Source: Prescottella equi (lineage in GTDB: Bacteria; Actinomycetota; Actinomycetes; Mycobacteriales; Mycobacteriaceae). Taken from it: a stretch of DNA of 64,000 nucleotides. The notes under the pieces were generated by a model. It made no database searches, was not told the origin of the DNA, and saw only the letters and a list, made by a program, of their open reading frames with translations. Location of the stretch: NCBI RefSeq assembly GCF_020171745.1, contig NZ_JAIVAH010000004.1, positions 186,001-250,000 on the forward strand, given 5' to 3'. Each line of letters starts with the position of its first letter. Within the stretch, counting starts at the first letter, position 1. Made by a program: the position numbers and the translations under genes. Below, piece after piece: positions 36,549-51,850 of the stretch.

Positions 36549-37694
36549 TCAGAGGTCGAGATCGCGACCGATGATCTCCTTCATGATCTCGTTGGATCCG
36601 GCCCAGATCTTCGTGACGCGGGCGTCCATCCAGGCGCGCGCGACGCGGTACTCGCGCATGAACCCGTAGCCGCCGTGCAGCTGCACGCAGTGATCGAGCA
36701 CCTCGTTCTGCACCTGCGCCGACCACCACTTGGCCTTGGCCGCGTCGACGGCGCTCAGACCGGCGTCGGCGTGCTCGGCCACCGCGGCGTCGATGTACGC
36801 CTGGGCGACCTCGATCTTCGTGACCAGTTCGGCCAGCAGGAACTTGTTGTGCTGGAACGAGCCGATCGAGTTCCCGAATGCCTTGCGCTCCTTGGCGTAC
36901 TCGATCGTCTCGAGCAGGATCTGCTTGGCGTGCGCGACGTTGGTGATGGCGGCGCCGATCCGCTCCTGCGGCAGGCGCTCCATCATGGAGACGAACCCGG
37001 TGCCGGGCTCGCCCAGCATCGCGTCGGCGGGCAGCCGGACGTCGTCGAAGAACAGTTCCGCGGTGTCCGCCTCGGGCTGGCCCACCTTGTCGAGCTTGCG
37101 TCCGCGCTCGAAGCCGGGCAGCGAGGTGTCGACGAGGAAGAGGCTGATGCCCTTGGACCGCTGGGTCGGGTCGGTGCGCGCCGCCACCACCACGACGTCG
37201 GCGGTGTAGCCGTTGGTGATGAACGTCTTGGAGCCGTTGAGGATCCAGTCGGAGCCGTCCCGGACCGCCGTGGACTTCAGGCTGGCCAGGTCCGAGCCGG
37301 CGGACGGCTCGGTCATGCCGATCGCGGCCACCGCCTCACCGGCGGCCATCCGCGGCAGCCACTGCTGCTTCTGCTCCTCGGACGCGAGATCGACGACGTA
37401 CGGGGTGACGATGTCGAAGTGGATGCCGAAGCTCGACGCCAGCGCCATGTTGACGGCGGCCAGCTCCTCGGTGGCGACCGCGTTGAACCGGTAGTCGCCG
37501 GCCTCGCCGCCGCCGTACGCCTCCGGGATCTCGAGCCCGAGGATGCCCTGCTTGCCGGCCTCGTGCCAGACCTCGCGCGCGATGAGCTTGTTCTCCGCGT
37601 ACTCGTCCACGTTCGGCACCACATCGCGGGCCAGGAAATCGCGGACGGCCGAACGGAACTCCTCGTGATCGGCCGTGAAAACTGCTCTCTTCAC
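36549..37694 (-). CDS. Acyl-CoA dehydrogenase
   Basis: A 381-residue FAD-dependent acyl-CoA dehydrogenase. It begins MKRAVFTADHEEFRSAVRDF. Family signatures are AIGMTEPSAGSDLASLKSTA (FAD side), GSKTFITNGYTADVVVVAAR, and RIGAAITNVAHAKQILLETI; the C-terminal QLHGGYGFMREYRVARAWMD and KIWAGSNEIMKEIIGRDLDL include the ACAD signature 2, with the catalytic Glu region SNEIM. It oxidises an acyl-CoA to the trans-2-enoyl-CoA, with a straight-chain or substituted substrate unresolved. It is divergent from a TetR gene, and a perfect palindrome, CTAAGCGTTCGCTTAG, lies between them, so it is likely repressed by that TetR. Confidence 0.95.
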   Translation of the reverse strand: MKRAVFTADHEEFRSAVRDFLARDVVPNVDEYAENKLIAREVWHEAGKQGILGLEIPEAYGGGEAGDYRFNAVATEELAAVNMALASSFGIHFDIVTPYVVDLASEEQKQQWLPRMAAGEAVAAIGMTEPSAGSDLASLKSTAVRDGSDWILNGSKTFITNGYTADVVVVAARTDPTQRSKGISLFLVDTSLPGFERGRKLDKVGQPEADTAELFFDDVRLPADAMLGEPGTGFVSMMERLPQERIGAAITNVAHAKQILLETIEYAKERKAFGNSIGSFQHNKFLLAELVTKIEVAQAYIDAAVAEHADAGLSAVDAAKAKWWSAQVQNEVLDHCVQLHGGYGFMREYRVARAWMDARVTKIWAGSNEIMKEIIGRDLDL

Positions 37695-38462: not shown

Positions 38463-38478
38463 CTAAGCGATCGCTCAG
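38463..38478. promoter_or_regulatory. TetR-type operator-like palindrome, copy 2
   Basis: CTAAGCGATCGCTCAG repeats the palindrome at 37726-37741 with two changes outside the CTAAGCG left arm. It lies 22 bases after the tetR stop and overlaps the last bases of the convergent GH5 gene. Its place downstream of both genes is unusual; looping with copy 1, or a hairpin role in the RNA, are possible readings. Confidence 0.55.
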
Positions 38479-39941
38479 AGTGCGGCGACCGAGTACTCCC
38501 CGGCGGCCTGACCGGTCAGGCGCCAGCCGCCGTCGATGCGGGTGAGCTCGGCGTCGGTGACGTTCACCGTGTCCAGTCGTGGCTGCTCGGCGCCCGGGTA
38601 CCAGGCCTCGATGCGTCCGGTGCCGTTGCCGTGGAACCCTGTCCCCGTCACCTCGGTCAGGCCTGGAACGGCCCGCGGGTACGCGCGGGAGAGCGGCTCC
38701 GCGAACCCCTCGACGAGCCCCTGCTCTTCACCCGACGGGCAGTCGATGCGATTGAGGTTGCCCTGCGGCTTGGCCGTGTTGCCGTCCTTCACCGCGTGCG
38801 GGTCGCCACACGCCTGAGTCCACGACCACCACGCGCCCCCGATCCGGTGCGCGTTCATCGCATCGACGAACCGATGGACCTCACCCGCCTGGTCGTCCGG
38901 CTCACCGAACCAGCCCCACTCACCGGTCCACAGCGGCGCGCCGTACCAGTCCGCCGCCATCGCGGCGATCCGGAATCCGTCTTCGATCGAGGGGAATTCA
39001 CTGCTGACGTTGATCGACTGGCTGTAGAGGTGCGGCGAGAACACGACCAGCGGATCGGCGAGATAGTGCCGCGGCGGCAGCGCATCGAATCCGAACGCCG
39101 ACCAGAGCGCGCTGGGCTCGAAGATCACCAGATGCGGGAAGCCGCCCGCCTCGGCCTGCCGGATCGCCGCGATCGCCCGCTGGTAGAAGCGTCCGATCTG
39201 ATCGGCCGCGGTGAACGGGTCCCGCAGGCCGGGGTTCGGCTCGTTGAGCAGGTCGTAGCCCACCACCGCAGGCTCGTCCTTGAACTCTGCGGCCAGGCGC
39301 GCCCACGTCTGCACCAGGTGGCCCTGCACGCCCTGTTCGTCGTCGTAGAACGCCTGGAATGCCCTGGCGACGGCCGGCGATGCCTCCCGCTGACCGCCGA
39401 TGTTGCACGTCGTCCACCCACCGGTGAGCGTCGCCCATTCGGGAGCCCCGTCCCACCCGATCCCACGCTGCAGGAGCGGCGGGCAGTCCTGACCCTCGGG
39501 CGTTCCCACGTAGGGCCCCCACGCGTCCTGATGCATGTCGAGGACGGTGTAGATGCCGTTGTCCTTCGCATCCTGCACGGCGTCACGGATCCGGCCGACG
39601 TACGCGGCGTCGAAGGCGCCGGGGGTCGGCTCCAGCGCCGACCACGCGACGTTCAACCGCACCACGTTGAAGCCGAGCGCCGCCATATCTTCGAAGTCCG
39701 TCCGGTCCAGCGGCGCGACCGTCGGCAGTCCGGTCCCGTTGGACGCGTAGTCGTTGAGCCCGTTGACGTTGGCACCGCGCAGCAGCACAGTCCGCCCGTC
39801 GACGTCCTTGATGGTGCCGTCCTCGACAGTCAGCCGCGGAAGCGTCCAGCCGTCGGACACCGGCGGGACCGGCGCCGCTACCGCGGCCGGCACGGCCTGG
39901 AGAGTCAGAGCCGCGAGGGCGACCATCAGCAGTACGCGCAC
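38475..39941 (-). CDS. Secreted GH5 endoglycoceramidase-like glycosidase
   Basis: A 488-residue exported glycoside hydrolase family 5 enzyme. GTG 39941 is chosen because AGGAAGG lies six bases before it; it starts a signal peptide, VRVLLMVALAALTLQAVPAA, cleaved near AVAAP. The TIM barrel begins RTVLLRGANVNGLNDYASNG. The acid/base Glu234 is in YDLLNEPNPG, and the nucleophile Glu341 in LWTGEWGWFGEPDD; MHQDAWGPY and FSPHLYSQS add conserved catalytic-site residues. A C-terminal beta-sandwich ends at EYSVAAL. This pattern matches endoglycoceramidases and endogalactosylceramidases, first characterised in Rhodococcus equi, that release whole glycans from glycosphingolipids. Which lipid class is cut cannot be told. 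It stands alone. Confidence 0.85.
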   Translation of the reverse strand: MRVLLMVALAALTLQAVPAAVAAPVPPVSDGWTLPRLTVEDGTIKDVDGRTVLLRGANVNGLNDYASNGTGLPTVAPLDRTDFEDMAALGFNVVRLNVAWSALEPTPGAFDAAYVGRIRDAVQDAKDNGIYTVLDMHQDAWGPYVGTPEGQDCPPLLQRGIGWDGAPEWATLTGGWTTCNIGGQREASPAVARAFQAFYDDEQGVQGHLVQTWARLAAEFKDEPAVVGYDLLNEPNPGLRDPFTAADQIGRFYQRAIAAIRQAEAGGFPHLVIFEPSALWSAFGFDALPPRHYLADPLVVFSPHLYSQSINVSSEFPSIEDGFRIAAMAADWYGAPLWTGEWGWFGEPDDQAGEVHRFVDAMNAHRIGGAWWSWTQACGDPHAVKDGNTAKPQGNLNRIDCPSGEEQGLVEGFAEPLSRAYPRAVPGLTEVTGTGFHGNGTGRIEAWYPGAEQPRLDTVNVTDAELTRIDGGWRLTGQAAGEYSVAAL

Positions 39942-40059
39942 GAGGAGCCTTCCTGTACAACCGTCCAAGTGAACGAGAGCTTAGGTCGACGCCCGGGGCA
40001 GTACGGGTGAAACGTCCAAAGTCTCACTCACGAAACGTCTCTCGCCAGGCTTCCGCGAA

Positions 40060-41604
40060 TCACGCCAGCTCGCGCTTGAGGATCTTCCCGGTAGCGGTCA
40101 TCGGTAGTTGCTCGACGAGCCGGACCTCGCGCGGGTACTTGTAACTCGCCATCCGCTCCTTCGACCACGCGATGAGATCCGCGGCGGAGACCTCGGTTCC
40201 GGGTGCCGGGATCACATAGGCCCGCACCTCCTCGCCGTGGCGCTCGTGTGGGATGCCGACGACGGCGGCCAGCGACACCGCGTCGTGCGTCATGAGGACC
40301 TCCTCGATCTCGCGCGGGTAGACGTTGAACCCACCGCGCACGATCATGTCCTTGGCCCGGTCCACGATGTAGTAGAAGCCGTCCGCGTCCCGGCGTGCGA
40401 GGTCGCCGGTGCGGAACCACCCGTCCCGCATCGCCTCCGCGGTCGCCTCCGGTCGGCCGTGATAGCCCTTCATGACGTTGTGACCGCGGATGGCGATCTC
40501 GCCCACGGTGTCCGCGCCCTCGACGGTGTTCCAGTCCCGGTCGACCAGGCGCACGTCCACGCCCCACAGCGGGACGCCGATCGATCCGGCCCGCGGGGCC
40601 TGCTCCGGATCGCTGAACAGCGCGACCGGCGACGTCTCCGACAGCCCGTAGCCCTCCAGGATCTGCACCCCGAACCGCGCCGCGAAACGCTCGAGGATCT
40701 CGACGGGCAGCGCGGCACCCCCGGAGATCGCCTTGCGGAGATTTCCGGCGATCCGCTCGACGTCCACCGAATCGTCGACGGCACCGAGCAGACCCCAGTA
40801 CATCGTCGGCACGCCCGCGAACATCGTGATCGACTCGCGCTCCATGATCTCCAGCGCCGCGCCGGCGTCGAAGCGTGGCAACAGCACCAGAGTCGCACCC
40901 ACCGAGAAGCCGGCGTTCATGTTGATCGTCTGCCCGAAGGAATGGAACAGCGGCAGGGTGAGCAGATGGGTGTCCGGCAGGCTCGGTGTGCTGTCGAACA
41001 ACCGGTCGGCGGCGATCGCGTTCATCACCATGTTCGAGTGGGTGAGCTCCGCACCCTTGGGCTGACCTGTGGTTCCGCTCGTGTAGAGGATCACCGCGGT
41101 GTCGGTCGCCTCGCACGCCGCCGCCTCGAACGTCGTCGGCTGTGCGGGAAGCACGTCCGACAGCGAGGTGACGCCGTCCCCGGCGAGGACCGCCGAGCCG
41201 TCGATGACGAACATCGTGCGGCACGATCCGGCGGCCCGGAAGCCCTCCCGCCCGTACTCCCCGATCGGCAACTCCGGCCCACCCTCGAAGCAGAAGTACG
41301 CCGCCGCCCCGCAGTCCTGCAGGTGGTACGCGATCTCGCGACCCTTCAGCAGAACGTTGAGCGGCACGACGACCGCACCGGCCTTGAGGATCCCGTAGTA
41401 GACGATCGGGAACCACGGGAGGTTCGGACACGAGATCGCGACCCGGTCGCCGGGCTCGATCCCGGACGCGACGAGGAGGTTCGCGATCTGGTTCGCGAGG
41501 CCATCGGTCTCGGCGTAGGTGAACCGGGCATCCCCCAGCACCAGCGCGTCGCGGTTCGGGTACTTGCGGGCCGAGTCTTCCAGGAACATGGACAGATTGA
41601 GCAT
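40060..41604 (-). CDS. Acyl-CoA synthetase (AMP-forming)
   Basis: A 514-residue ATP-dependent acid:CoA ligase. ATG 41604 (MLNLSMFLEDSARKYPNRDA) is a typical start for the family; a weak GAGAGAAG site precedes it. The P-loop-like motif is LYTSGTTGQPKGAELTHSN; the adenylation motif GYGLSETSPVALFSDPEQAP and the hinge region GWFRTGDLARRDADGFYYIV with DRAKDMIVRGGFNVYPREIE follow; the catalytic Lys is near the end in TGKILKRELA. The substrate may be a medium or long-chain, or an unusual, acid. It is the last gene of the leftward 40-45 kb cluster and could activate the acid made there. Confidence 0.93.
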   Translation of the reverse strand: MLNLSMFLEDSARKYPNRDALVLGDARFTYAETDGLANQIANLLVASGIEPGDRVAISCPNLPWFPIVYYGILKAGAVVVPLNVLLKGREIAYHLQDCGAAAYFCFEGGPELPIGEYGREGFRAAGSCRTMFVIDGSAVLAGDGVTSLSDVLPAQPTTFEAAACEATDTAVILYTSGTTGQPKGAELTHSNMVMNAIAADRLFDSTPSLPDTHLLTLPLFHSFGQTINMNAGFSVGATLVLLPRFDAGAALEIMERESITMFAGVPTMYWGLLGAVDDSVDVERIAGNLRKAISGGAALPVEILERFAARFGVQILEGYGLSETSPVALFSDPEQAPRAGSIGVPLWGVDVRLVDRDWNTVEGADTVGEIAIRGHNVMKGYHGRPEATAEAMRDGWFRTGDLARRDADGFYYIVDRAKDMIVRGGFNVYPREIEEVLMTHDAVSLAAVVGIPHERHGEEVRAYVIPAPGTEVSAADLIAWSKERMASYKYPREVRLVEQLPMTATGKILKRELA

Positions 41605-41639
41605 CGAAGCGTTCTTCTCTCGGGCGGCGATCGTGACGG

Positions 41640-42233
41640 TCAGTGGCTCGGCGCGGGCGCGGCGCCGATCGTGGTGAGCAGTTCGTCGAGAAGTTCGCCG
41701 GCGCGCGGCCATTCGCCGTAGCCGGAGGCCGGGTTGAGGTGCCCGACCTCACCGAGGTCGACGAGCCTGCTGCCCCACGCGTGTGCCATATCGACCACGG
41801 CGGTGAACTCGGCGAGCGGATCGTTGCGGCTGGCGGCGACAATGCTCGGGAACGGCAACATGCTGCGCGGGACCGGGTTCCATCCGTTCGCGTCGAGATC
41901 CGACAGCGTCGGATAGCCGGCAGGCAGCGGCGTGGAGAAGTCCGGCGGGGTGGCCAGGATCGCGCCCGCGACCGGGCGGTCGTGTCGGGCGGCCCAGTGC
42001 ACGGTGATCATCACCCCGGCGCTGTGCGCAACCAGCACGACGGGGCCGTCGATGTCGGTCAGGACGGCGTCCAGCGCGGCCACGCGTGCGTCCAGGCCGA
42101 GCCTGTCGTGCTCGAGTGTCGGGACGATGCGGACGCTGTCCAGGCCGGCGGCCAACAGGGTCTGCCAGTGATCCTCGACGTGATCGCGCAGTCCGGGAAC
42201 GATCACGACGGTCGGGGAAACGGAGCTGCTCAA
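41640..42233 (-). CDS. RBBP9/YdeN-family serine hydrolase
   Basis: A 197-residue alpha/beta-hydrolase. TTG 42233 is favoured by GGAGGG six bases before it; earlier starts would add a proline-rich tail. It begins with the strand VIVPGLRDHVEDHWQTLLAA, the RBBP9 signature, and has the nucleophile elbow LVAHSAGVMITVHWAARHDR with catalytic Ser, Asp in ASRNDPLAEF and His in EVGHLNPASGYGEWP. Members cleave esters or thioesters; here it could release a CoA or an ester substrate in the pathway. A hairpin lies between it and the upstream cleavage-enzyme gene, which may reduce its transcription. Confidence 0.88.
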   Translation of the reverse strand: MSSSVSPTVVIVPGLRDHVEDHWQTLLAAGLDSVRIVPTLEHDRLGLDARVAALDAVLTDIDGPVVLVAHSAGVMITVHWAARHDRPVAGAILATPPDFSTPLPAGYPTLSDLDANGWNPVPRSMLPFPSIVAASRNDPLAEFTAVVDMAHAWGSRLVDLGEVGHLNPASGYGEWPRAGELLDELLTTIGAAPAPSH

Positions 42234-42268
42234 GGCATGCCCTCCAGGAGAAATCGATGCGGACGGAC

Positions 42269-42300
42269 GGGGCGGGGACACCTGTGGGCGTCCCCGCCCC
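42269..42300 (-). terminator. Intra-cluster hairpin (attenuator or terminator)
   Basis: A perfect 11-bp stem, GGGGCGGGGAC (42269-42279) and GTCCCCGCCCC (42290-42300), with a ten-base loop lies between the beta-keto acid cleavage enzyme gene and the hydrolase. It may end the main transcript or lower expression of the last two genes. Confidence 0.55.
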
Positions 42301-42335
42301 ACCGAGGGGTGCTGTCGCAGACGGGTGACAGCGGG

Positions 42336-43391
42336 TCAGGCGTGCTGGGTGAAGCCGACCTGGCCGGGCTGACGGTTCGGCGCGTAGCCGAGCTTGGCGA
42401 GGGTCTCGTCGGCGTCGGCGTACGTGGTGCCGATCCTGTAGATGTCGCGGGCCTCCTTGCCGGTAGCCACCTCGCGGCCGAGTTCCTTGGCGACGCGTAC
42501 CAGCTGTCGGACCTGCTCGGCGGAGGTGATCTTGACCTCGCCGTTCGGTTCCCACAGGTTGTCCTCGTTGCCGCAGCGGGTGTGCAGACCCATCGCCATC
42601 GCCATCGTGTTGACCGGGAGCACGCTGCGCATCAGCGTCTCGAGGGTCAGGCACGCGCCGTCCGGGACCCGGTCGATGAACTGCATCATGTTGTACGGGT
42701 TGGGGCCGTCGAAGCCACCGCCGATCGCAACCCACGTCAGGTTCAACGGCCCGGTGTAGACGCCGCGGCGGATCAACCGTTCGACCGTCTCGAGCTGCGG
42801 GATGGACGAGAGCTGGAAGTGCGGCTGGATGCCGGCGGCCTGCAGACGACGCAGGTGCTCCTCGACCCACTCGGGTCCGGCGGGAACGGTCATCTCGCGG
42901 TAGGTCGCGGCGAGGTCGGCGTTCTCCAGCGAGGTGCCCTTGATGTCACCCGGCGTCATCAGCTCCATGATGTTCATCTGGCTGGTGTTGATCGCGATCG
43001 TGACCTGGTCCGGCTTCGGGTCCAGTTCGGCGAGCATGTGACGGACGTTGTCCGGCAGCCACTTCGCGTCGGCTCCGTCACCTTCCGGTGCGAACGAGAT
43101 GGAGCCGCCGACCTGCAGGATCATGTCCGGCACAGCCTCCCGCAAACGGCCGAGGAGCTCGTTGAACTTCGACAGCCGCTTCGAACCCTTGCCGTCCTCC
43201 TCGCGGACGTGGATGTGCAGCACGGTCGCGCCGGCCTCGTAGCAGTCGACGGCCTGCTGGACATGCTCGTCCATCGTCAGCGGCAGGTCCTCGGGGAAGT
43301 CCTCCACCGCCCATTCCGGGCCGTACGGCGCGACGGTGATGACCAGCTTGTCCTGGTTCTCGGGGAAGAGTGCATCGTCATGGAAATGCAT
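42336..43391 (-). CDS. Beta-keto acid cleavage enzyme (BKACE, DUF849)
   Basis: A 351-residue TIM-barrel zinc enzyme. ATG 43391 follows CGGAG. Family members condense a beta-keto acid with acetyl-CoA and split it into acetoacetate and a new acyl-CoA. The N-terminal strand is LVITVAPYGPEW and the zinc ligands are in ATVLHIHVREEDG (the H-x-H pair); AINTSQMNIMELMTPGDIKG, QLSSIPQLETVERLIRRGVY and GLHTRCGNEDNLWEPNGEV are the usual substrate-loop and C-terminal motifs. No 3-keto-5-aminohexanoate or carnitine neighbour is seen, so the beta-keto acid is unknown. The 3-oxoacid CoA-transferase at 48764-50172 would activate the acetoacetate released. Confidence 0.92.
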   Translation of the reverse strand: MHFHDDALFPENQDKLVITVAPYGPEWAVEDFPEDLPLTMDEHVQQAVDCYEAGATVLHIHVREEDGKGSKRLSKFNELLGRLREAVPDMILQVGGSISFAPEGDGADAKWLPDNVRHMLAELDPKPDQVTIAINTSQMNIMELMTPGDIKGTSLENADLAATYREMTVPAGPEWVEEHLRRLQAAGIQPHFQLSSIPQLETVERLIRRGVYTGPLNLTWVAIGGGFDGPNPYNMMQFIDRVPDGACLTLETLMRSVLPVNTMAMAMGLHTRCGNEDNLWEPNGEVKITSAEQVRQLVRVAKELGREVATGKEARDIYRIGTTYADADETLAKLGYAPNRQPGQVGFTQHA

Positions 43392-43434
43392 TGCGTAACT
43401 CCGTTTCTGAATAGGTGTGCGGCTGAAGCAAGAC

Positions 43435-44334
43435 TCAGAAGGGACGGTCGCCGACGATCCCGGCACGCTCCATCTTTCGAACCGCCGGCCAGTAGTCCTG
43501 GACCGCGTAGTGCTGCGTCGAACGGTTGTCCCAGATCGCGACGCTGTTCCGGGTCCAGCGCCAGCGCACCTGGTATTCCGGGATGGTGGCCTGACTCTGC
43601 AGGTACCGCAGCAGCTCGCCGGCGCCGGGCGCGTAATCGATTCCGCACCTGACGTTCTCGGCGGTGTGGAAGTTCGTCAGGTGCGTCGTGAAGCTGTTGA
43701 CGAACAGGATCTTCTCCCCTGTCTCCGGGTGGATGCGGACCACCGGGTGCTCCGCGTCCGGGAAGCGGTCCTTGAGTTCGAGGCGCTTGTCCATCGGCAG
43801 CCGGGCACCGAACGACGCTTCGATGCTGTGCCGCGCCCGCAGACCCTCGATCTTCTCCTTGACGTCCTGGGGCAGTCGCTCGTACGCCAGGGCCATGTTG
43901 ACCCAGATCGTGTCGCCACCGACGGCGGGACCCTCGACGCACCGCAGCACGCATCCCATCGGCGGGTTCGCGCGCCACGTCGCATCGCAGTGGTAGGCGT
44001 TCTCGAACGCCTCGGGGGCGCTGTCGAGATCCTTGTAGATCCGGACCAGACCGGGATGGTCCGGATCGCTCCCGACGACGGGGTGGTCCTCGAGCGCACC
44101 GAACCGCTGTGCGAGCGCCACATGCTCGTCGCGGCTCATGTCCTGGTCGCGGAAGAACAGCACCTTGTGCTCGAGCAGACGCGACTTCAGTTCCGCGAAG
44201 AGGTCGTCGTCACGGGCGACGTCCGCGAGATCGACACCGTGAACTTCCGCACCGATACTGCAGGTCAGGGGGCGTGCGTCCATCGACGCGAGGGGCGTCG
44301 GACGAGCGTGCGCGAGGCTTTCGACGATGGTCAT
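43435..44334 (-). CDS. TauD/TfdA-type Fe(II)/2-oxoglutarate dioxygenase
   Basis: A 299-residue cytosolic oxygenase. ATG 44334 follows AGGAGAGAG. The N-terminal strand GAEVHGVDLADVARDDDLFA and RLLEHKVLFFRDQDMSRDEH are typical of TauD. The iron ligands are His and Asp in NAYHCDATWRANPPMG and the distal His in RSTQHYAVQDYWPAVRKMER; the 2-oxoglutarate Arg is in the same segment. It hydroxylates a carbon next to a charged group, often leading to its loss (taurine, 2,4-D, trimethyllysine, betaine). Situated between a cleavage enzyme and an oxidoreductase, it is a good first-step enzyme. The substrate is unknown. Confidence 0.93.
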   Translation of the reverse strand: MTIVESLAHARPTPLASMDARPLTCSIGAEVHGVDLADVARDDDLFAELKSRLLEHKVLFFRDQDMSRDEHVALAQRFGALEDHPVVGSDPDHPGLVRIYKDLDSAPEAFENAYHCDATWRANPPMGCVLRCVEGPAVGGDTIWVNMALAYERLPQDVKEKIEGLRARHSIEASFGARLPMDKRLELKDRFPDAEHPVVRIHPETGEKILFVNSFTTHLTNFHTAENVRCGIDYAPGAGELLRYLQSQATIPEYQVRWRWTRNSVAIWDNRSTQHYAVQDYWPAVRKMERAGIVGDRPF

Positions 44335-44366
44335 CGACTCTCTCCTGTTCATGCTCGGAAGAAGGA

Positions 44367-45344
44367 TCAGAACGAGAAGACGGACGAGCCGATGCTGATG
44401 CCCGACTCCAGGTCTCGGTGAGCCTGTTCGGCCTCCTCGAGCGCGTAGTGCTGGTTGATCTCGATCCGGATGCGGCCGGCCGCGACGTGGCCGAACAGTT
44501 CGCCCGCGAGTTCGGCGCGTTCGGCCGGATCGGCGATGTAGTCGGCGAGCGCCGGGCGGGTCACGAAGAGAGAGCCCTTGACCGCGAGCTCCATGGCGTT
44601 GATCGGCGGGATCGGACCGGACGCCGTCCCGAACGCCACGAGCAGGCCGCGGCGCGCCAGCGAGTCGATCGACGACTGGTAAGTGGTCGCGCCGATGCTG
44701 TCGTAGACGACGGGCACACCGGCGCCGTCGGTGAGTTCACGGACCCGCTCGGCGACGTTCTCCCGCTTGTAGACGATGACCTCACCGCAGCCGTGGGCGC
44801 GGGCCACCTCGGCCTTCTCGTCGCTGGATACGGTGCCGATGACGTTGATCCCCAGCAGCTTTGCCCACTGACAGAAGATCAGACCGACACCGCCGGCGGC
44901 GGCGTGCAGCAGCACGGTGTCGCCCGCCTTCAGTGAAGGAGCGATCCGGCGCAACAGGTACGACGTGGTGAGCCCGCGCATCGTCATCGCGGCCGCGGTC
45001 TCGAACGCGATGCCGTCCGGCAGCGCGATCAGGTGTTCGGCGGGCATCACGCGCTCGGTGCTGTATGCGCCCAGTGGGCTGCCGGTGTAGGTGACCCGGT
45101 CGCCCTCCGCGAAGCCCTCCACCCCGACGCCGACCGCCTCGACGACGCCCGCCGCCTCGACGCCCATTCCCGCAGGCAGCGGGGCCGGGTAGAGCCCGGT
45201 GCGGAAGTACGTGTCGGCGAAGTTCAGCCCGACCGCCTCGTGCCGGACCCGGACCTCGCCCGGACCTGGATCGCCGACGTCCACGGCTTCCCACTTCAGG
45301 ACTTCCGGTCCACCGGTCTCGTAGAAGCGGATCGCTTTTGCCAT
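44367..45344 (-). CDS. Quinone oxidoreductase-like MDR protein
   Basis: A 325-residue NADPH-dependent oxidoreductase of the zinc-free medium-chain dehydrogenase/reductase class. ATG 45344 follows AAGGAGAAGG. It begins AIRFYETGGPEVLKWEAVDV, has GEVRVRHEAVGLNFADTYFR, and the NADPH motif VLLHAAAGGVGLIFCQWAKL with AHGCGEVIVYKRENVAERVR. No zinc-ligand cysteines are present. It could reduce an enal, quinone or keto intermediate. It is the first gene of the leftward cluster, with CGGGACA repeats in the region upstream. Confidence 0.93.
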   Translation of the reverse strand: MAKAIRFYETGGPEVLKWEAVDVGDPGPGEVRVRHEAVGLNFADTYFRTGLYPAPLPAGMGVEAAGVVEAVGVGVEGFAEGDRVTYTGSPLGAYSTERVMPAEHLIALPDGIAFETAAAMTMRGLTTSYLLRRIAPSLKAGDTVLLHAAAGGVGLIFCQWAKLLGINVIGTVSSDEKAEVARAHGCGEVIVYKRENVAERVRELTDGAGVPVVYDSIGATTYQSSIDSLARRGLLVAFGTASGPIPPINAMELAVKGSLFVTRPALADYIADPAERAELAGELFGHVAAGRIRIEINQHYALEEAEQAHRDLESGISIGSSVFSF

Positions 45345-45563
45345 TGCCTTCTCCTTGATCTCGAATCGACGCCGAGCGGGCCGGCTCACCTGCGCGACTG
45401 TGCGGAACAATCCGCGCAGCAACCCCTTTCGAGTCTCGACGCCCACCGAACCGGATCCCGCGAACTCGCCTCGACCGAGAACGGCCGGCGAATCGCGGGA
45501 CAACGCCGGTGTGACTCATCTGACACGACACTATCGATCCGTGACGCACCACACATGCCCTCA

Positions 45564-45592
45564 CGGGACATATTTCTTTCCTTTTCGGGACA
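45564..45592. promoter_or_regulatory. Direct-repeat pair, likely AraC-regulator site
   Basis: CGGGACA occurs at 45564-45570 and again at 45586-45592, exactly 22 bases (two helical turns) apart; a third copy lies at 45496-45502. On the minus strand these read TGTCCCG. A TAGTGT hexamer (minus strand, 45533-45528) could be the -10 for the leftward operon. The rest of the 356-base divergent region shows nothing else clear. Confidence 0.6.
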
Positions 45593-45700
45593 CCAGTGTG
45601 ATCCAGGCAATATGCCCGCCGACACACTCTCGACTCGACTGTGCCCGGTCGCACACTTACCCTCGGGGGACATCACGACCATCCCGAGGAGGTGGTGCGG

Positions 45701-46729
45701 GTGGCCAAGCCTCTCGCGCGGTACGCCGCCCTGACCGGATACATCGAGGTCAGCCGCACGCTGGGCATCGATCCGGTACAGCTGCTGCGAACGGTCGGCC
45801 TCGACCCGTCGAGCCTGGATCTCCAGGATCGATGGATCCCCGCCGCGTCCGTGGCGCGACTGCTCGAACTGTCGTCGGCAGCCTCCGGCCGTCCCGACTT
45901 CGCACTCAAGCTCGCCGAGCACCGGCGTCTGTCCACCCTGGGGCCGCTCAGCGTGAGCATCCGCGAGGAACCGGACGCGCGGAGCGCACTCCGGATGCTG
46001 ATCCGGTACCAGCACATGTACAACGAGGCCCTGCACATCCGCATGACCGAGAGGGACGGACTGTCCGCGATCCAGGTCAGCATCGAACCCGGCGAACCGA
46101 TGCCGGTCCGGCAGTCGATCGAGCTCGCCGTGACGGTCGTTCACCAACTGCTCCGCAACCTGCTCGGGGAGCGATGGCACCCGGTCTCCGTCTGCTTCGA
46201 GCACGGCCGGCCCGCGGACGATTCCACGCATCGCCGCATGTTCGGCACACCGCCGACCTTCGACAGCGACTTCAGCGGGATCGTCACCTACACAGGCGAT
46301 CTGAACGAGCCGAATCGCCTGTCGGATCCCGGACTGCGCTCGTACGCCAAGCAGTTCCTCGACACGTTGTCGGAGCCCGCACAGCCCACGATCGAGGGAC
46401 GCGTCCGCGAACTGGTCGAACTACTGCTTCCGACGGGCCGGTGCTCCATCGACCAGGTGGCCCGCAGCCTCGGGGTCGACCGGCGCACGGTCCATCGTCA
46501 TCTCGCGAAGTCGGGTCAGACGTTCACCGGCGTCCTCGACACGACGCGTGCCGAACTCGCGAACCGGATGGTGCGCGGGACCCGGTACTCGTTCACGGAG
46601 ATCTCCGAGATGCTCGCCTTCTCGACACCGAGCAGCTTCTCGCGCTGGTTCCACCAGCAGTTCGGCACCAGTCCGCGGGAGTGGCGCAAGCAGGCCGCGG
46701 CGAGCGGCGCCGCCAGGGTCGGCGCCTGA
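45701..46729 (+). CDS. AraC-family regulator of the catabolic cluster
   Basis: A 342-residue transcription factor. GTG 45701 is chosen because GAGGAGGT lies at 45686-45693. The N-terminal half (YAALTGYIEVSRTLGIDPVQ, VARLLELSSAASGRPDFALK, GPLSVSIREEPDARSALRML) is the arabinose-binding-like domain of OruR/AraC-type activators (DUF4156-type layout not assumed). The C-terminal DNA-binding domain reads CSIDQVARSLGVDRRTVHRH and SFTEISEMLAFSTPSSFSRW, the two AraC helices, ending FGTSPREWRKQ. It lies between the leftward and rightward halves of the cluster, and matching 22-base-spaced repeats occur on both sides, so it probably activates both in response to a pathway substrate. Confidence 0.92.
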   Translation: MAKPLARYAALTGYIEVSRTLGIDPVQLLRTVGLDPSSLDLQDRWIPAASVARLLELSSAASGRPDFALKLAEHRRLSTLGPLSVSIREEPDARSALRMLIRYQHMYNEALHIRMTERDGLSAIQVSIEPGEPMPVRQSIELAVTVVHQLLRNLLGERWHPVSVCFEHGRPADDSTHRRMFGTPPTFDSDFSGIVTYTGDLNEPNRLSDPGLRSYAKQFLDTLSEPAQPTIEGRVRELVELLLPTGRCSIDQVARSLGVDRRTVHRHLAKSGQTFTGVLDTTRAELANRMVRGTRYSFTEISEMLAFSTPSSFSRWFHQQFGTSPREWRKQAAASGAARVGA

Positions 46730-46770
46730 CCGACCGGCACCCCCGGAAACGGGCATCGAGCGCACACAGG

Positions 46771-46815
46771 TGTCCCGAGATGCACAGAATGACGTCCCAG
46801 AGGGGTAATTAATGT
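46771..46815 (+). promoter_or_regulatory. Direct-repeat operator and -10 for the CMD-MFS-CoA transferase operon
   Basis: TGTCCCG at 46771-46777 and CGTCCCA at 46793-46799 are again 22 bases apart, with the same core TGTCCC as the minus-strand reading of the pair at 45564. A TAATGT hexamer at 46810-46815 is a plausible -10, placing the proximal repeat over the -35 region as expected for an AraC-type activator. Confidence 0.6.
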
Positions 46816-46911
46816 GAACAGAGTCGATATAGCGTGATGTGCGCCACTTCTCATCGCGCGCTGTAGCGCGCACCACATCCGCATTCGACTTTCGGTGAAA
46901 CGAGCGCTGCC

Positions 46912-47295
46912 ATGACCATGAGCCCAGAGCCGACACCCACCCCGACGATCGACCGCATGCAGCAAGAGGGAAACTGGAATCCACTGTGGGACAGACTCTC
47001 CCAGTGGGATCCCGAATGGACCGAACAGTTCATGGCGATGAACGCCACGCCGATTCGACGCGGGGTGTTTCCGCCGGAGTTCGTCGAACTGCTCAGTATC
47101 GCGATCGACGCCGCGGCCACGCACCTGTACGCCCCCGGCGTTCGCCGGCACATCCGAGCGGCACTCGAACTCGGTGTCACCCGCGAGCAGATTCTCACGG
47201 TGCTCCAGATGGTCAGCGTCCTCGGGATCCACGCCTGCAACCTCGGGGTGCCGATCCTCGAGGAGGAACTCGCCGCGTTCGAAGCCCGGCCGTAG
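46912..47295 (+). CDS. Carboxymuconolactone decarboxylase-like protein
   Basis: A 127-residue all-helical AhpD/CMD-fold protein. It reads WDPEWTEQFMAMNATPIRRG then FPPEFVELLSIAIDAAATHL YAPGVRRHIRAALELGVTRE and QILTVLQMVSVLGIHACNLG. The family helix pattern (E-x-L-x-I, H-x-R-A-A-L, T-R-E-x-I-x-x-V-L-Q) is complete, but the redox Cys-x-x-Cys of AhpD is absent, so it is probably not a peroxidase. In catabolic operons such proteins act as decarboxylases or accessory isomerases. It is the first gene of the rightward operon; the AraC-type repeats lie upstream. Confidence 0.88.
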   Translation: MTMSPEPTPTPTIDRMQQEGNWNPLWDRLSQWDPEWTEQFMAMNATPIRRGVFPPEFVELLSIAIDAAATHLYAPGVRRHIRAALELGVTREQILTVLQMVSVLGIHACNLGVPILEEELAAFEARP

Positions 47296-47358
47296 CGCCG
47301 CGCGCCGCCGCGAACCGCCTCTCCCTCTCCCCCAGTCCATCCGCCTTCAGGAGCAACC

Positions 47359-48723
47359 ATGGGACTGCCTCTCACCTCGACCGACCAGCACGCCGGTACC
47401 ACCGACGCCGACGACACCGGCCAGGCGGTCACCGCCGCGCCCCTCCGCCCCCGATCCCGGCTCTATCCGTGGATCGTCGCCGCTCTGGCGTTCGCGCTGC
47501 TGCTGTCGGACTACATGTCCCGCCAGGTCCTCAGCGCGGTCTTCCCGATGCTCAAGGCCGAGTGGGCGCTGTCCGATTCCCAGTTGGCATCGCTCACCAG
47601 CGTCGTCGCACTGATGGTCGGCCTGTTGACGTTCCCACTGTCCCTGCTCGCCGACAGGTGGGGTCGGGTCCGCAGTCTGGTCCTCATGGCCGTGATGTGG
47701 AGCCTCGCAACGCTGTGCTGTGCGATCGCGTCCAACTACGAACAGATGTTGGCGGCGCGGTTCTTCGTGGGCGTCGGCGAGGCCGCGTACGGCAGTGTCG
47801 GCATCGCCGTGGTGCTGAGCGTGTTCTCCCCCCGGCTGCACTCGTCGCTCAGCGGCGCCTTCATGGCCGGCGGATCCTTCGGTTCCGTGGTCGGAGTCTC
47901 GCTCGGTGGCGTGATCGCCGTGAACGTCGGATGGCGGTGGTCGTTCACCGCGATGGCGGTACTGGGACTGATCCTCGCCGCACTGTTCCGGGCCGTGGTC
48001 ACCGAGTCCCGGCTCGCGAGGTACGCCGTGCACGACGATCCCGTCGCCCCGTCCGACGCCTCCGCCCCGACCGCACCGGTCATCCGCGTCCCTGTGTCGA
48101 CCCTGTTCACGAATCGTGCCGTGTGGTGCGCCTACCTCGCCGGCGGCTTCCAGATGTTCACCGCGGCCGTCCTGTTGTCGTGGACACCCAGCTTCTTCAA
48201 CCGGTACTACGGCATGGCACCGGACAAGGCCGGCGGGGTCGCCGCGCTGTTCGTCCTGTTGGTCGGCACGGGAATGGTGGTGTGCGGCATGATCACCGAC
48301 CGCGTGAGCCGCACCGATCCGGCCCGCAAGTGGATGGCCGCCGTCGCGTACTGCACGATCGCCCTGCTGTCACTCGGCATCGGGCTCCAGCTCGGTACCG
48401 GCGCACCCCAGCTGATCCTCCTCGGGATCGGCGCCTTCTTCTCGGCCGGGTGCTCGGGTCCGACGGCCGCCATGGTCGCCGGCCTCACCCACGAATCGGT
48501 CCGTTCGTCGGCTCTGGGTACACTCACCATCGCCAACAATGTTCTCGGTTTGGCGTTGGGCCCCTTCGTCATCGGCATCCTCGCCGATCGACTGGGACTT
48601 CTCGAGTCGCTGCAGCTCGCGCCTCTCTTCTACGTCCTCGCCATCGTCGTGCTGCTCGTCGGCAAGCGCGTCTACCCTGCGGGACTGCGCAAGCTCGCAT
48701 CGCAGAGCACTGCCTCCGCCTGA
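47359..48723 (+). CDS. MFS transporter (12 helices)
   Basis: A 454-residue inner-membrane carrier of the major facilitator superfamily. ATG 47359 follows CAGGAG. About 12 helices are visible, beginning LYPWIVAALAFALLLSDYMS; the loop 2-3 motif is LLADRWGRVRSLVLMAVMW (the D-R-x-G-R-x-R signature) and helix 4 has ARFFVGVGEAAYGSVGIAVV. A central loop (RLARYAVHDDPVAPSDASAP) joins the halves. The pattern is close to the anion:cation symporter or metabolite:H+ symporter families, which take up organic acids. Within the operon it probably imports the pathway substrate. Confidence 0.92.
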   Translation: MGLPLTSTDQHAGTTDADDTGQAVTAAPLRPRSRLYPWIVAALAFALLLSDYMSRQVLSAVFPMLKAEWALSDSQLASLTSVVALMVGLLTFPLSLLADRWGRVRSLVLMAVMWSLATLCCAIASNYEQMLAARFFVGVGEAAYGSVGIAVVLSVFSPRLHSSLSGAFMAGGSFGSVVGVSLGGVIAVNVGWRWSFTAMAVLGLILAALFRAVVTESRLARYAVHDDPVAPSDASAPTAPVIRVPVSTLFTNRAVWCAYLAGGFQMFTAAVLLSWTPSFFNRYYGMAPDKAGGVAALFVLLVGTGMVVCGMITDRVSRTDPARKWMAAVAYCTIALLSLGIGLQLGTGAPQLILLGIGAFFSAGCSGPTAAMVAGLTHESVRSSALGTLTIANNVLGLALGPFVIGILADRLGLLESLQLAPLFYVLAIVVLLVGKRVYPAGLRKLASQSTASA

Positions 48724-48763
48724 CCCCACGATCGCCGAGACAGTCGGAGACGGAAAGGTATTC

Positions 48764-49528
48764 ATGAGCAAGATCTATGCATCGGCCGCTGCGGCGGTCG
48801 CGGACATCCCGTCCGGAGCGTCCCTCGCCGTCGGAGGGTTCGGGCTGTGCGGCATCCCCGACATCCTGATCGCCGCCCTCGCGGCCGGCCCGGAGACGGA
48901 CTTCGAGGTGTTCTCGAACAACTGCGGCACCGACGGGCACGGCCTCGGAATCCTGCTCGAGGACGGCAGGATTCGCCGGGTCACGGCGTCCTACGTCGGG
49001 GAGAACAAGGAGTTCGCGCGCCGGTACCTGTCGGGCGAACTCGAGGTGGAGTTGACCCCGCAGGGCACACTCGCAGAGAAGATGCGGGCGGGCGGGGCCG
49101 GGATCCCGGCGTTCTTCACGCCGTCGGGCGTCGGCACCCCCATCTCGGAGGGCGGACTGCCGTGGCGCTATGCCCCGGACGGTTCGGTGGCACTCGCGTC
49201 GCCGCCCAAGGAGGTGCGGGCGTTCGGCGGTCGCGACTACGTGTTGGAGGAGGCGATCACCGCCGACTTCTCGCTGGTGCACGCCATGGTCGGCGACACC
49301 GAGGGAAACCTGGTCTTCAACAAGGCCGCGATGAACTTCAACCCGCTCGCCGCGATGGCCGGCCGGGTGTGCATCGCCCAGGTCGAGGTGATCGTCGAGG
49401 CCGGGGAACTCGATCCCGAGCAGGTGCATCTGCCGGGCATCTTCGTCGACAGGATCGTCCACATCGGACAGCAGGACAAGAAGATCGAGAAGCGGACCGT
49501 CTCGGCCGCGAAGGAGGGCACCCGATGA
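48764..49528 (+). CDS. scoA: 3-oxoacid CoA-transferase, subunit A
   Basis: A 254-residue subunit of succinyl-CoA:3-ketoacid (acetoacetate) CoA-transferase. ATG 48764 follows GGAAAGG. It reads [60 protein letters not shown] and [37 protein letters not shown], all SCOT alpha-subunit motifs. Its stop overlaps the start of subunit B (ATGA). It would take CoA from succinyl-CoA to acetoacetate, giving acetoacetyl-CoA for thiolysis. This links to the beta-keto acid cleavage enzyme in the same regulon, which produces acetoacetate. Confidence 0.94.
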
Positions 49529-50172
49529 CCGCGGTGGTGGAGACCGTCGGCTGGACGCGCGAGCAGATGGCCGCGCGGGCCGCACGCGAACTCGTGTCCG
49601 GCGAGTACGTCAACCTCGGAATCGGCTTGCCCACAATGATTCCGAACCATCTGCCCGACGGCGTCGCGGTGACGCTGCACAGCGAGAACGGCATCCTCGG
49701 CACCGGCCCCTACCCCACCGAGGCCGAGGTGGACCCGGACCTGATCAACGCCGGCAAGGAGACCGTGACCGTCGACGCCGGAGCGTCGTTCTTCGACTCC
49801 GCCACCAGTTTCGGGATGATCCGCGGCGGCCACATCGACACCGCGGTGCTCGGCGGCATGCAGGTCTCCGCGACCGGCGACCTCGCCAACTGGATGGTGC
49901 CGGGGAGGATGGTCAAGGGCATGGGCGGGGCGATGGACCTGGTGCACGGTGCCCGCCGGGTCATCGTGCTCATGGAACACACCGACAAGACCGGGGCCTC
50001 GAAGGTCGTCGGACGCTGCACGCTGCCGCTCACCGGACGCGCCGTGGTCGACCGCATCATCACCGACCTTGCGGTGATCGACGTGACCGATGCCGGCCTC
50101 GTCCTCCGCGAGTGCGCTCCGGGGGTGACCGAGGACGCGGTCCGCGCGGCCACCGACACCGTCCTGATCTGA
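49525..50172 (+). CDS. scoB: 3-oxoacid CoA-transferase, subunit B
   Basis: A 215-residue subunit, starting at ATG 49525 inside the ATGA overlap with subunit A. It reads [20 protein letters not shown] and [20 protein letters not shown], the catalytic Glu lying in [47 protein letters not shown] and [15 protein letters not shown] are the standard subunit B motifs. The two subunits form a heterotetramer. It is the last gene of the rightward operon; a terminator hairpin follows at once. Confidence 0.95.
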
Positions 50173-50215: not shown

Positions 50216-51850
50216 TCAGCTGGTGGCCCGGCTGCGCATCGCGTCGACGAACACACCGGGGATCTCGGCGGGCGTGCGCGCAACGTGGCTGGTTCCGCCG
50301 GTGGCGGCCGAGATCTTCTGCAGGACAGCCGCGTCGGCGTCCTCGGTGATGCCGATCGTGACGATGATGACCGGACGTGCCGGGTCCTGCTCCCGCTTCA
50401 GGGTCGCGAGCAGTTCGTCGAGCGAGATCGTCGACGGGTCCTCGTTGGCGCCGTCGGTGAGCAGGATGACGCTGTTGATCGCGGCCGGGTCGTAGCCCTC
50501 CTTGACCTTTCGGAACGCGGCGAGCGTCGTGTCGTACAGCCCGGTGCCGCCCTTGACGAGCGTGGGCAGCGTGCGGACCGCGTCGGTCAGGCGCTGCCGG
50601 TGGCTGACGCCGTCGACCGTCTCGTCCAGACGGCGGATCGGGGCCAGTTCCTTGTAGTCCTGTCCTCCCCCGCCCAGCCCGATCGAGAACGCCCACAGCC
50701 CCAGCTGTGCGTTGTCCGGGAACAGCCGGGCGCCGGTCTCGCTGGCCTGGACCGTCAGCGCGATCCGGGTCTCGGGACCGGCCTGCTCGGCCATCGAACC
50801 CGAGACGTCCTCCACCACGAGCGCGCGGGACGGCAACGCCAGCACCGCGTACCGGCGCAACACCTTCGCCGTCTCCGTCGGGTCCGCGACCGTCAGCACC
50901 GCGACGTCTCCGACACCGCGACCGGCGTCGAGCGGCGCCCGGTCCGGTTCACGGAACCCGCGCTGCGTCAGGGCGGCCCGGCCCGAATCGGATCCCATCG
51001 CCTCGGCCAGCGCGACGCCGGCCTTGCGGGCGTCGTCGTGCTCGGACCCGGCTGCGGTCGCCACGACCGGGTAGTCGAGGAACACCGCTCCCGAGTTCGG
51101 CGTCGTCATCTCGAGCCGAACGGTCGAGTCACCCGCGTTCTGCCCCACCACCTGCTGCTCGGTAGCGATGGCGATGCCGCCGTCCGATGCGACGGCCGCG
51201 AGCCGCGCCGCGGGATCGGTCTGGTGCATGTTGGCGGCCTGAGCCTGGGCGAGCGGGACGAGCGCCCCGGGCACCGCGTCGGCGGCGATGGTGCCCGCGT
51301 CGGCCTCCGACAGGGCGCCGACGATGGGGGCGCCCGAGATGCTGCTGGTGAGCGGGTCACCGATCTTCAGGCCCTGCAACTGCAGTGCGCTCAGCCATGT
51401 CGCGAAGAACGGCATGTCACCCTCGCGGGACGCGATGACGACCGGTGTCGCGGCGATCGACGGGGCCGCGACGTCGAAGAGGGTGCCCGTGCCGCTGCTG
51501 GCCTTCGCGACCCACTGGGTCGAATCCGGAATCCACAGGTCCGGGCCGGCCTGCTGCCCGGGCTCGCCGAGCGCGTCCATCCCGGAGGCGGCCTCGATCC
51601 GGAAGCTGCGGCAGCCGAGATCCTCGGCCGACGCCGACGAGGTGACTTCGGTGAGGACCGGCGAGATCGACGGGTCCGCGGCCACCACGTACTCGGTCAC
51701 CGAATCGCACCCGCCGCCCATCCGGTCGACGACGAAATACGCGCCGACGCCCACGACGACCACCGCCGCGAGGCCGATCGCCCCGTACTTCACGAGCGGC
51801 GACGTCGCCGCCGCGGATTTCGCGCGCGGCGCGCTGTGACGACCGGCCAT
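50216..51850 (-). CDS. Membrane-anchored solute-binding-like/VWA protein
   Basis: A 544-residue protein with an N-terminal membrane helix (LVKYGAIGLAAVVVVGVGAY) and a large extracytoplasmic part. Residues about 50-300 resemble a periplasmic binding-protein fold (EYVVAADPSISPVLTEVTSS, GEPGQQAGPDLWIPDSTQWV). Residues about 335-540 form a von Willebrand A domain with a good metal site: ALVVEDVSGSMAEQAGPETR (D-x-S-x-S), GGTGLYDTTLAAFRKVKEGY and NSVILLTDGANEDPSTISL. Such combined proteins are frequent in mycolata and are probably surface-exposed adhesion or assembly proteins; ligand unknown. The ATG is at 51850. Confidence 0.88.
   Translation of the reverse strand: MAGRHSAPRAKSAAATSPLVKYGAIGLAAVVVVGVGAYFVVDRMGGGCDSVTEYVVAADPSISPVLTEVTSSASAEDLGCRSFRIEAASGMDALGEPGQQAGPDLWIPDSTQWVAKASSGTGTLFDVAAPSIAATPVVIASREGDMPFFATWLSALQLQGLKIGDPLTSSISGAPIVGALSEADAGTIAADAVPGALVPLAQAQAANMHQTDPAARLAAVASDGGIAIATEQQVVGQNAGDSTVRLEMTTPNSGAVFLDYPVVATAAGSEHDDARKAGVALAEAMGSDSGRAALTQRGFREPDRAPLDAGRGVGDVAVLTVADPTETAKVLRRYAVLALPSRALVVEDVSGSMAEQAGPETRIALTVQASETGARLFPDNAQLGLWAFSIGLGGGGQDYKELAPIRRLDETVDGVSHRQRLTDAVRTLPTLVKGGTGLYDTTLAAFRKVKEGYDPAAINSVILLTDGANEDPSTISLDELLATLKREQDPARPVIIVTIGITEDADAAVLQKISAATGGTSHVARTPAEIPGVFVDAMRSRATS

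Follow-up and report, generated by a model that had tools for sequence, protein, structure and literature searches.

The window analysed here is a stretch of 64,000 nucleotides of Prescottella equi DNA, and its positions 40060–50172 hold a cassette of nine catabolic genes in two divergent operons around an AraC-family regulator (Table 1). The left operon pairs a TauD-type dioxygenase with an enzyme of the DUF849 or beta-keto acid cleavage enzyme (BKACE) family, the genome's single match to PF05853, and we tentatively read the cassette as a route for the use of an organosulfonate as carbon source. Pfam and NCBIfam profiles confirmed the places, orientations and families that a preliminary description had given for all ten genes; the true starts likely lie inside several of the listed open reading frames (ORFs).

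Table 1. Genes of the cassette and a possible accessory gene to its left, with profile scores
Feature	Position	Strand	Basis and remarks
Acyl-CoA dehydrogenase, possible accessory oxidising an acyl-CoA product	36549..37694	-	Pfam
AMP-forming acyl-CoA ligase	40060..41712	-	PF00501 311.6 bits; likely start 41604
RBBP9/YdeN-type serine hydrolase	41640..42302	-	PF06821 140.8 bits; HSAG motif at ORF residue 93
DUF849/BKACE-family enzyme	42336..43466	-	PF05853 219.4 bits against a cut-off of 24.8; likely start 43391
TauD-type Fe(II)/2-oxoglutarate dioxygenase, predicted sulfonate dioxygenase	43435..44352	-	PF02668 222.7 bits
QOR-type NADPH:quinone/enone reductase	44367..45503	-	NF008024 368.6 against 348, passes; likely start 45344
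AraC-family regulator	45641..46729	+	PF12625 N-terminal domain and helix-turn-helix; divergent from the QOR operon
CMD/AhpD-like protein	46912..47295	+	PF02627 33.4 bits
MFS importer, anion/aromatic-acid symporter-like	47359..48723	+	PF07690 153.9 bits; best NCBIfam subfamilies below cut-off
3-oxoacid CoA-transferase subunit A (scoA)	about 48764..49528	+	PF01144 225.6 bits; start estimated
3-oxoacid CoA-transferase subunit B (scoB)	about 49525..50172	+	TIGR02428 326.9 against 243.55, passes; start estimated

Distribution of the gene set

In the window's own family, probably Mycobacteriaceae, 401 genomes were searched with the BKACE sequence; 113 gave a hit at E 0.001, a number that takes in weak hits on other DUF849 proteins. 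From these, 60 regions were picked for fetching, the nearest and most varied first, several of them from one genome and one from a genome 79% complete (G003). Of 578 confirmed stretches in named genomes the best 80 were kept, and 25 of these loci are shorter than 20 kb. In the neighbourhood counts, 'near' denotes set thresholds and a 12 kb reach, and absences are lower bounds. TauD and QOR both lie near BKACE in 47 of the 60 own-family loci, and the same loci contain an AraC-type regulator (59), the MFS carrier (53), the hydrolase (49), CMD (35) and either 3-oxoacid CoA-transferase (SCOT) or an acetoacetate-CoA ligase (32). The 80 named-genome loci come mostly from Proteobacteria, with Cupriavidus, Dechloromonas, Pseudomonas, Variovorax, Caulobacter, Mesorhizobium, Dyella, two Polyangium and others represented; TauD is near in 71, QOR in 61, the MFS carrier in 42, the hydrolase in 40 and SCOT or the ligase in 11, and the Polyangium loci hold only BKACE, QOR and TauD of the set. 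The tauD gene stands directly upstream of duf849/BKACE on the same strand in 47/60 own-family, 7/22 plasmid-record and 66/80 named-genome loci. This grouping is more than chance, with a very constant left-operon core and less constant SCOT and CMD. The single pathway envisaged in the preliminary description is to that extent favoured for QOR, TauD, BKACE, the MFS carrier and the hydrolase, which stay together. SCOT is less constant, and neither it nor the ligase was seen nearby in 111 of 157 loci with a clade BKACE.

Plasmid records also carry the gene set, one of them, from the environmental strain Novosphingobium sp. ES2-1 with its full core and a YeiH-type gene, typed as conjugative, and another from Streptomyces. 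Rhodococcus and Tsukamurella plasmids bear near copies of the cassette in the same gene order, which is our ground for regarding the own-family genomes as Mycobacteriaceae-like. A close TauD (E at most 1e-90) was found in 4 of 396 genomes sampled over the phylum, the window's own genome counted. Such a patchy spread outside the family would suit horizontal transfer, and the sequence comparisons suit a gene set that is both conserved and horizontally shared. No account of the cassette turned up in the set of open-access papers to which our search was confined, which agrees with the earlier suggestion of an undescribed catabolic pathway.

The DUF849 enzyme and acetoacetate

Residues of the DUF849 enzyme were compared across 163 clade proteins, the window's included, which were not deduplicated (L107 and L111 are possibly counted twice) and whose named-locus members were chosen by the motif GGS[IV][ST]F. 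The comparison set consisted of six other DUF849 proteins, recovered from 20 fetched regions, 14 of which lacked an ORF that passed the filter, together with four solved references. The zinc ligands His46, His48 and Glu230 are kept in 163/163 clade proteins, as are Arg226 and Asp231. The catalytic base, Glu143 in Cca and Glu171 in Pd, is replaced in every clade member (Gln in 152, Met in 7, Ala in 3, Val in 1), whereas it is kept in 6/6 of the other DUF849 proteins and 4/4 of the solved references. Tyr145 (Tyr173 in Pd) is Ser in the window protein, retained as Tyr in 39 clade proteins and replaced in 124, with four Tyr and two Phe among the six others, and Ser82-Thr83 is absent from 70/70 clade proteins. 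The clade therefore shares with Kce and other BKACEs the PF05853 family, the zinc site, Arg226 and Asp231 and, in some loci, an acetoacetate-activating gene nearby, but it differs at the base, at Tyr145 and at Ser82-Thr83, and its window member reaches no NCBIfam equivalog. BKACE with acetoacetate as product is also part of the carnitine and deoxyribonate pathways, for which we know of no TauD–QOR module.

In the Paracoccus enzyme, E171L is reported to have abolished activity and E171D to have left 5% (PMC11961710). Because a base essential there is replaced throughout, the clade protein should not, judging from its residues, be filed as a canonical BKACE, and the textbook BKACE reaction assumed in the preliminary description loses its footing across the clade examined. 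The clade may serve as a natural test of how an enzyme of BKACE fold acts without the catalytic base. Another divergent DUF849 enzyme without the Tyr is BsfD of the flavophos pathway, which has Phe for Tyr, keeps the Glu and is reported to transfer an acetyl group without cleavage (PMC12871164); the same paper states that the Tyr is present in all BKACEs. BsfD serves phosphonate biosynthesis, whereas the clade has lost the Glu and sits in a catabolic-looking cassette.

Clade members L102–L110 are labelled '3-keto-5-aminohexanoate cleavage protein' in public records, a label that is probably wrong for the clade because the active site of its members does not support the name. A role in lysine fermentation was rejected, the Kce equivalog NF052387 scoring 138.6 against a cut-off of 382, and on this point the preliminary description, which had seen no lysine-fermentation cluster, was right; beta-ketoadipate and 3,5-dioxohexanoate roles were set aside with NCBIfam scores far under the cut-offs.

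It is conceivable that the protein still performs the BKACE reaction with a substitute for Glu143, for example Glu14 or Glu103, an arrangement compatible with either pathway discussed below. The invariant zinc site with Arg226 and Asp231 would accord with this, as would the SFAPE-loop residue Glu103, which does not vary in either of two alignments (12 and 16 clade proteins), and the acetoacetate-activating genes near 46 of the 157 loci. Glu14, at a position which we take to contact the ammonium of Kce's substrate, is Glu in 145 clade proteins but changed in 18, and this argues against a substitute base, as do the two Paracoccus variants. We give the substitute base a sizeable share of our belief, well short of half.

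The activating genes themselves point to the product. Among the 157 loci, 34 have SCOT only, 12 have acetoacetate-CoA ligase only and none has both. One ligase, from Streptomyces, was scored by profile and exceeds the cut-off of the acetoacetate-CoA ligase equivalog TIGR01217 (771.3 against 520.9); the others were assigned by identity to it. Because two unrelated acetoacetate-activating enzymes replace each other, the exchange is a good argument that acetoacetate is the product in loci with those genes, and the activation of acetoacetate to its CoA form, already part of the preliminary description, gains support from it.

Dioxygenase pocket, PF03601 neighbours and a candidate sulfonate route

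The solved structure nearest to the window TauD is 5vn6, a 'taurine dioxygenase' (466.8 bits) that is presumably of Burkholderia origin. In an alignment of 144 clade TauDs the iron site His99, Asp101 and His255 and the 2-oxoglutarate residue Arg266 occur in all, and the sulfonate site is retained almost as fully, with His70, Arg270 and Phe159 in 144 and Phe206 in 143, while Ser/Thr158 is kept in 142; we take the positions of His70, Arg270, Phe159 and Phe206 to have taurine-binding roles in TauD. The Asn95 position, where the alignment is gapped, is Glu in 144/144, and the Tyr73 position holds Ala, Val or Leu in 139. From these residues taurine itself appears an unlikely substrate, and the pocket suggests a sulfonate other than, perhaps larger than, taurine. 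Taurine catabolism proper was rejected on the changes at Tyr73 and Asn95 and on the taurine dioxygenase equivalog NF007104, which the window TauD does not reach (237 against a cut-off of 313). The clade TauDs also have a mean Cys plus Met content of 3.97% (1.4–6.3), against values of 0.37% and 0.74% for two TauD segments; a low content of sulfur amino acids is described for Tau and Ssu proteins (PMC11022551). That the clade enzymes are not sulfur-sparing fits a carbon pathway with excess sulfite. They thus resemble taurine dioxygenase in family and in their iron-site, 2-oxoglutarate and sulfonate-site residues, and differ from it in the missed equivalog, the two pocket positions, the AraC-linked operon and this composition.

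A second line of evidence comes from genes of the YeiH-type family PF03601. In 77 chosen genomes with a clade BKACE (G044, G167, G220, G269 and two G230 fragment rows were left out), 28 of 86 PF03601 copies, spread over 27 genomes, are no more than 15 kb away from that BKACE against 0.59 expected, an expectation that treats related genomes as independent and gives no exact P; 63 of the 77 genomes have a copy over the cut-off. Of the 55 named loci that span 20 kb or more, 23 contain such a gene, and it is commoner with TauD (45/133) than without it (4/30; Fisher p 0.028). The protein from L066 passes PF03601 (218.7 against 24.5), and in 10 of the 14 own-family loci with a PF03601 gene a LysR gene, possibly for YeiE, lies within 500 bp of it. 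In Salmonella YeiH is reported to be the main sulfite-resistance factor and to be regulated by the adjacent LysR protein YeiE (PMC12880088). The 10 own-family loci reproduce this LysR–PF03601 pair near the cassette; they differ from the Salmonella system in that the pair stands beside a catabolic cassette. A sulfite dehydrogenase gene lies beside a TauD relative in L114 and had no match in the other cassette loci searched.

The PF03601 genes could also be co-mobile with the cassette and functionally separate from it, the cassette then being a general beta-keto-acid or diketone pathway. Most loci have no nearby PF03601 gene, the YeiH subfamily cut-off was missed, and passengers are likely where the cassette rides on plasmids, one of them conjugative. 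Against this, the association holds in the window's own family and in Proteobacteria despite divergent PF03601 proteins (about 30–37% between the two query types), and the distances are 3–14 kb. We therefore consider a purely co-mobile relationship improbable.

Since the PF03601 neighbours and the conserved taurine-site residues point to sulfite release, the reading we favour is that the operon carries out oxygenolytic desulfonation of an organosulfonate, of unspecified structure, for carbon, a tentative assignment for which we would claim slightly less than an even chance. Hydroxylation of a sulfonate-bearing carbon with loss of sulfite is known TauD chemistry. The MFS carrier would import the sulfonate and, as pocket residues and context suggest, TauD would hydroxylate its sulfonate-bearing carbon, the alpha-hydroxysulfonate giving a carbonyl and sulfite; the sulfite would be exported or tolerated by way of the YeiH-type protein, whose gene lies close to the cassette in many relatives and at another place in this genome. 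QOR may reduce an enone or quinone-like intermediate. If the sulfonate were beta to a carboxylate, R-CH(SO3-)-CH2-COO-, TauD itself would yield the beta-keto acid R-CO-CH2-COO- and sulfite in one step, which would explain the adjacency of tauD and duf849. The DUF849 enzyme, with its zinc site and without the BKACE base, and the serine hydrolase would split the beta-keto acid to give acetoacetate together with an R-CO unit. The acetoacetate would be activated by SCOT, or in other loci by acetoacetate-CoA ligase, and the R-CO unit would enter beta-oxidation through the CoA ligase and acyl-CoA dehydrogenase. The gene set and its conservation, the SCOT/ligase exchange, the PF03601 association and the residue patterns are direct observations, and every reaction that we place between them is inferred.

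A more specific version makes this a new sulfonate pathway, in which TauD turns a beta-sulfo acid into a beta-keto acid and the base-less DUF849 enzyme and RBBP9-type hydrolase share a split reaction. The DUF849 enzyme would acetylate the beta-keto acid, as BsfD does, the hydrolase would cleave the carbon–carbon bond to acetoacetate and a free acid, and the CoA ligase would re-activate that acid. This would explain a hydrolase and a ligase beside an enzyme whose canonical reaction needs neither, and we nonetheless hold it to be quite unlikely as a whole.

Several findings weigh against the sulfonate reading. Both YeiH-type proteins scored, L066 and L102, miss the YeiH subfamily TIGR00698 (163.1 and 164.7 against 232.6); these neighbours may therefore differ in function from Salmonella YeiH, and our confidence is lowered accordingly. 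Transport by YeiH is itself only a suggestion in the Salmonella study (PMC12880088). Outside the own family, the LysR query used found the LysR–PF03601 pair in 0 of 28 YeiH-bearing loci, and the window cassette has no PF03601 gene in its vicinity, the single copy of this genome being on another contig. The four TauD-less BKACE copies with a YeiH-type gene nearby imply that sulfite may not come from TauD only. In the pocket, the Asn95 and Tyr73 positions depart from taurine dioxygenase, and since the non-taurine homologue PlaO1 also appears to match at His70 and Arg270, this pair of residues is not diagnostic by itself. Downstream, 111 loci lack a nearby acetoacetate-activating gene, and a canonical BKACE step would require the base that all 163 clade proteins lack. 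The role given to QOR is a guess, as are those of the hydrolase, CMD and ligase, and the data do not discriminate among the candidate substrates considered, namely capnine-type sulfonolipids, secondary alkanesulfonates, lignosulfonates and 3-sulfopropanoate.

The preliminary description had proposed a sulfur-free scheme, in which TauD hydroxylates an acid or betaine, a dehydrogenase forms the beta-keto acid, a canonical BKACE yields acyl-CoA and acetoacetate, and SCOT recycles the acetoacetate. Gamma-butyrobetaine hydroxylase, a plain hydroxylase, is the model for such a TauD. The gene content fits, acetoacetate as product is supported, and the prevailing Glu14 would suit a cationic substrate; but the scheme leaves the PF03601 association and the retained Phe159 and Phe206 unexplained, QOR belongs to the quinone/enone reductase type, and the BKACE lacks its base. 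A route that hydroxylates and then oxidises a sulfur-free acid or amine is thus disfavoured, and we judge the scheme unlikely.

Soils hold a large stock of organic sulfur as sulfonates, which are also a common class of surfactants and pollutants, and to our knowledge few routes that use them for carbon have been described. If the desulfonation reading holds, the cassette would represent an unnoticed branch of the sulfonate cycle, desulfonating and making acetoacetate, in Actinomycetota and Proteobacteria, with its core in Polyangium, and carried in part on plasmids.

Alternative front ends and flanking genes

The clade enzyme occurs with two sets of partners. Loci of at least 12 kb contain 163 clade BKACE copies. 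A TauD lies within 6 kb of 133 of these, together with QOR in 122, CMD in 21 and a related SDR in 3; the 30 copies without TauD have QOR in 1, CMD in 19 and SDR in 12. QOR therefore accompanies TauD, while the same DUF849 enzyme also occurs with another partner set. Second BKACE copies from the window's genus (L046, L047, L050 and L051) are 95–97% identical to the window BKACE and stand without TauD and QOR, beside CMD, SsuA-like and TauC-like transporter genes and, in three of the four, an AroE-type dehydrogenase; the transporter assignments fall below family cut-offs and are weak evidence.

Other loci add to this variety. Six Pseudomonas loci (L144, L153–L155, L160 and L164) have a tandem of two TauD–BKACE pairs and, after it, a YeiH-type gene, with SCOT next in five. 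An ORF of about 597 aa, which resembles PHA synthase by eye only, is conserved in seven loci (L116, L153–L155, L160, L164 and L177). A related TauD (54–61% to the window's) forms a second TauD module in L113, L114 and L137 with a 2,4'-dihydroxyacetophenone-dioxygenase-type cupin and alpha/beta hydrolases. DUF1302- and/or DUF1329-type genes lie near the cassette in the proteobacterial loci L103, L132, L134, L141, L143 and L157, partly with YCF48-like, MMPL and large LuxR genes, and perhaps hint at a hydrophobic or ester-type substrate. In Caballeronia grimmiae (L104:6038–11998) the methylcitrate-cycle genes prpB, prpC, acnD and prpF follow the cassette, a hint of propionyl-CoA; prpB and prpC of this locus, used as queries, had no match in the other cassette loci scanned.

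The functional locus of the window may extend further left, since the family of its acyl-CoA dehydrogenase recurs in 9 of 70 clustered loci, a Rhodococcus plasmid among them, and this enzyme may be part of the pathway. It is 97% identical to its counterpart in the relative locus L042, whose best NCBIfam score, to NF042972 (AcrC), is below cut-off. Between this gene and the ligase, at 38475–39968, lies a glycoside hydrolase family 5 (cellulase) protein whose cluster occurs in 7 loci. To the right, a protein with solute-binding and von Willebrand A domains (50216–51850) belongs to a cluster also found in 7 loci, all from the window's genus, and is probably unrelated.

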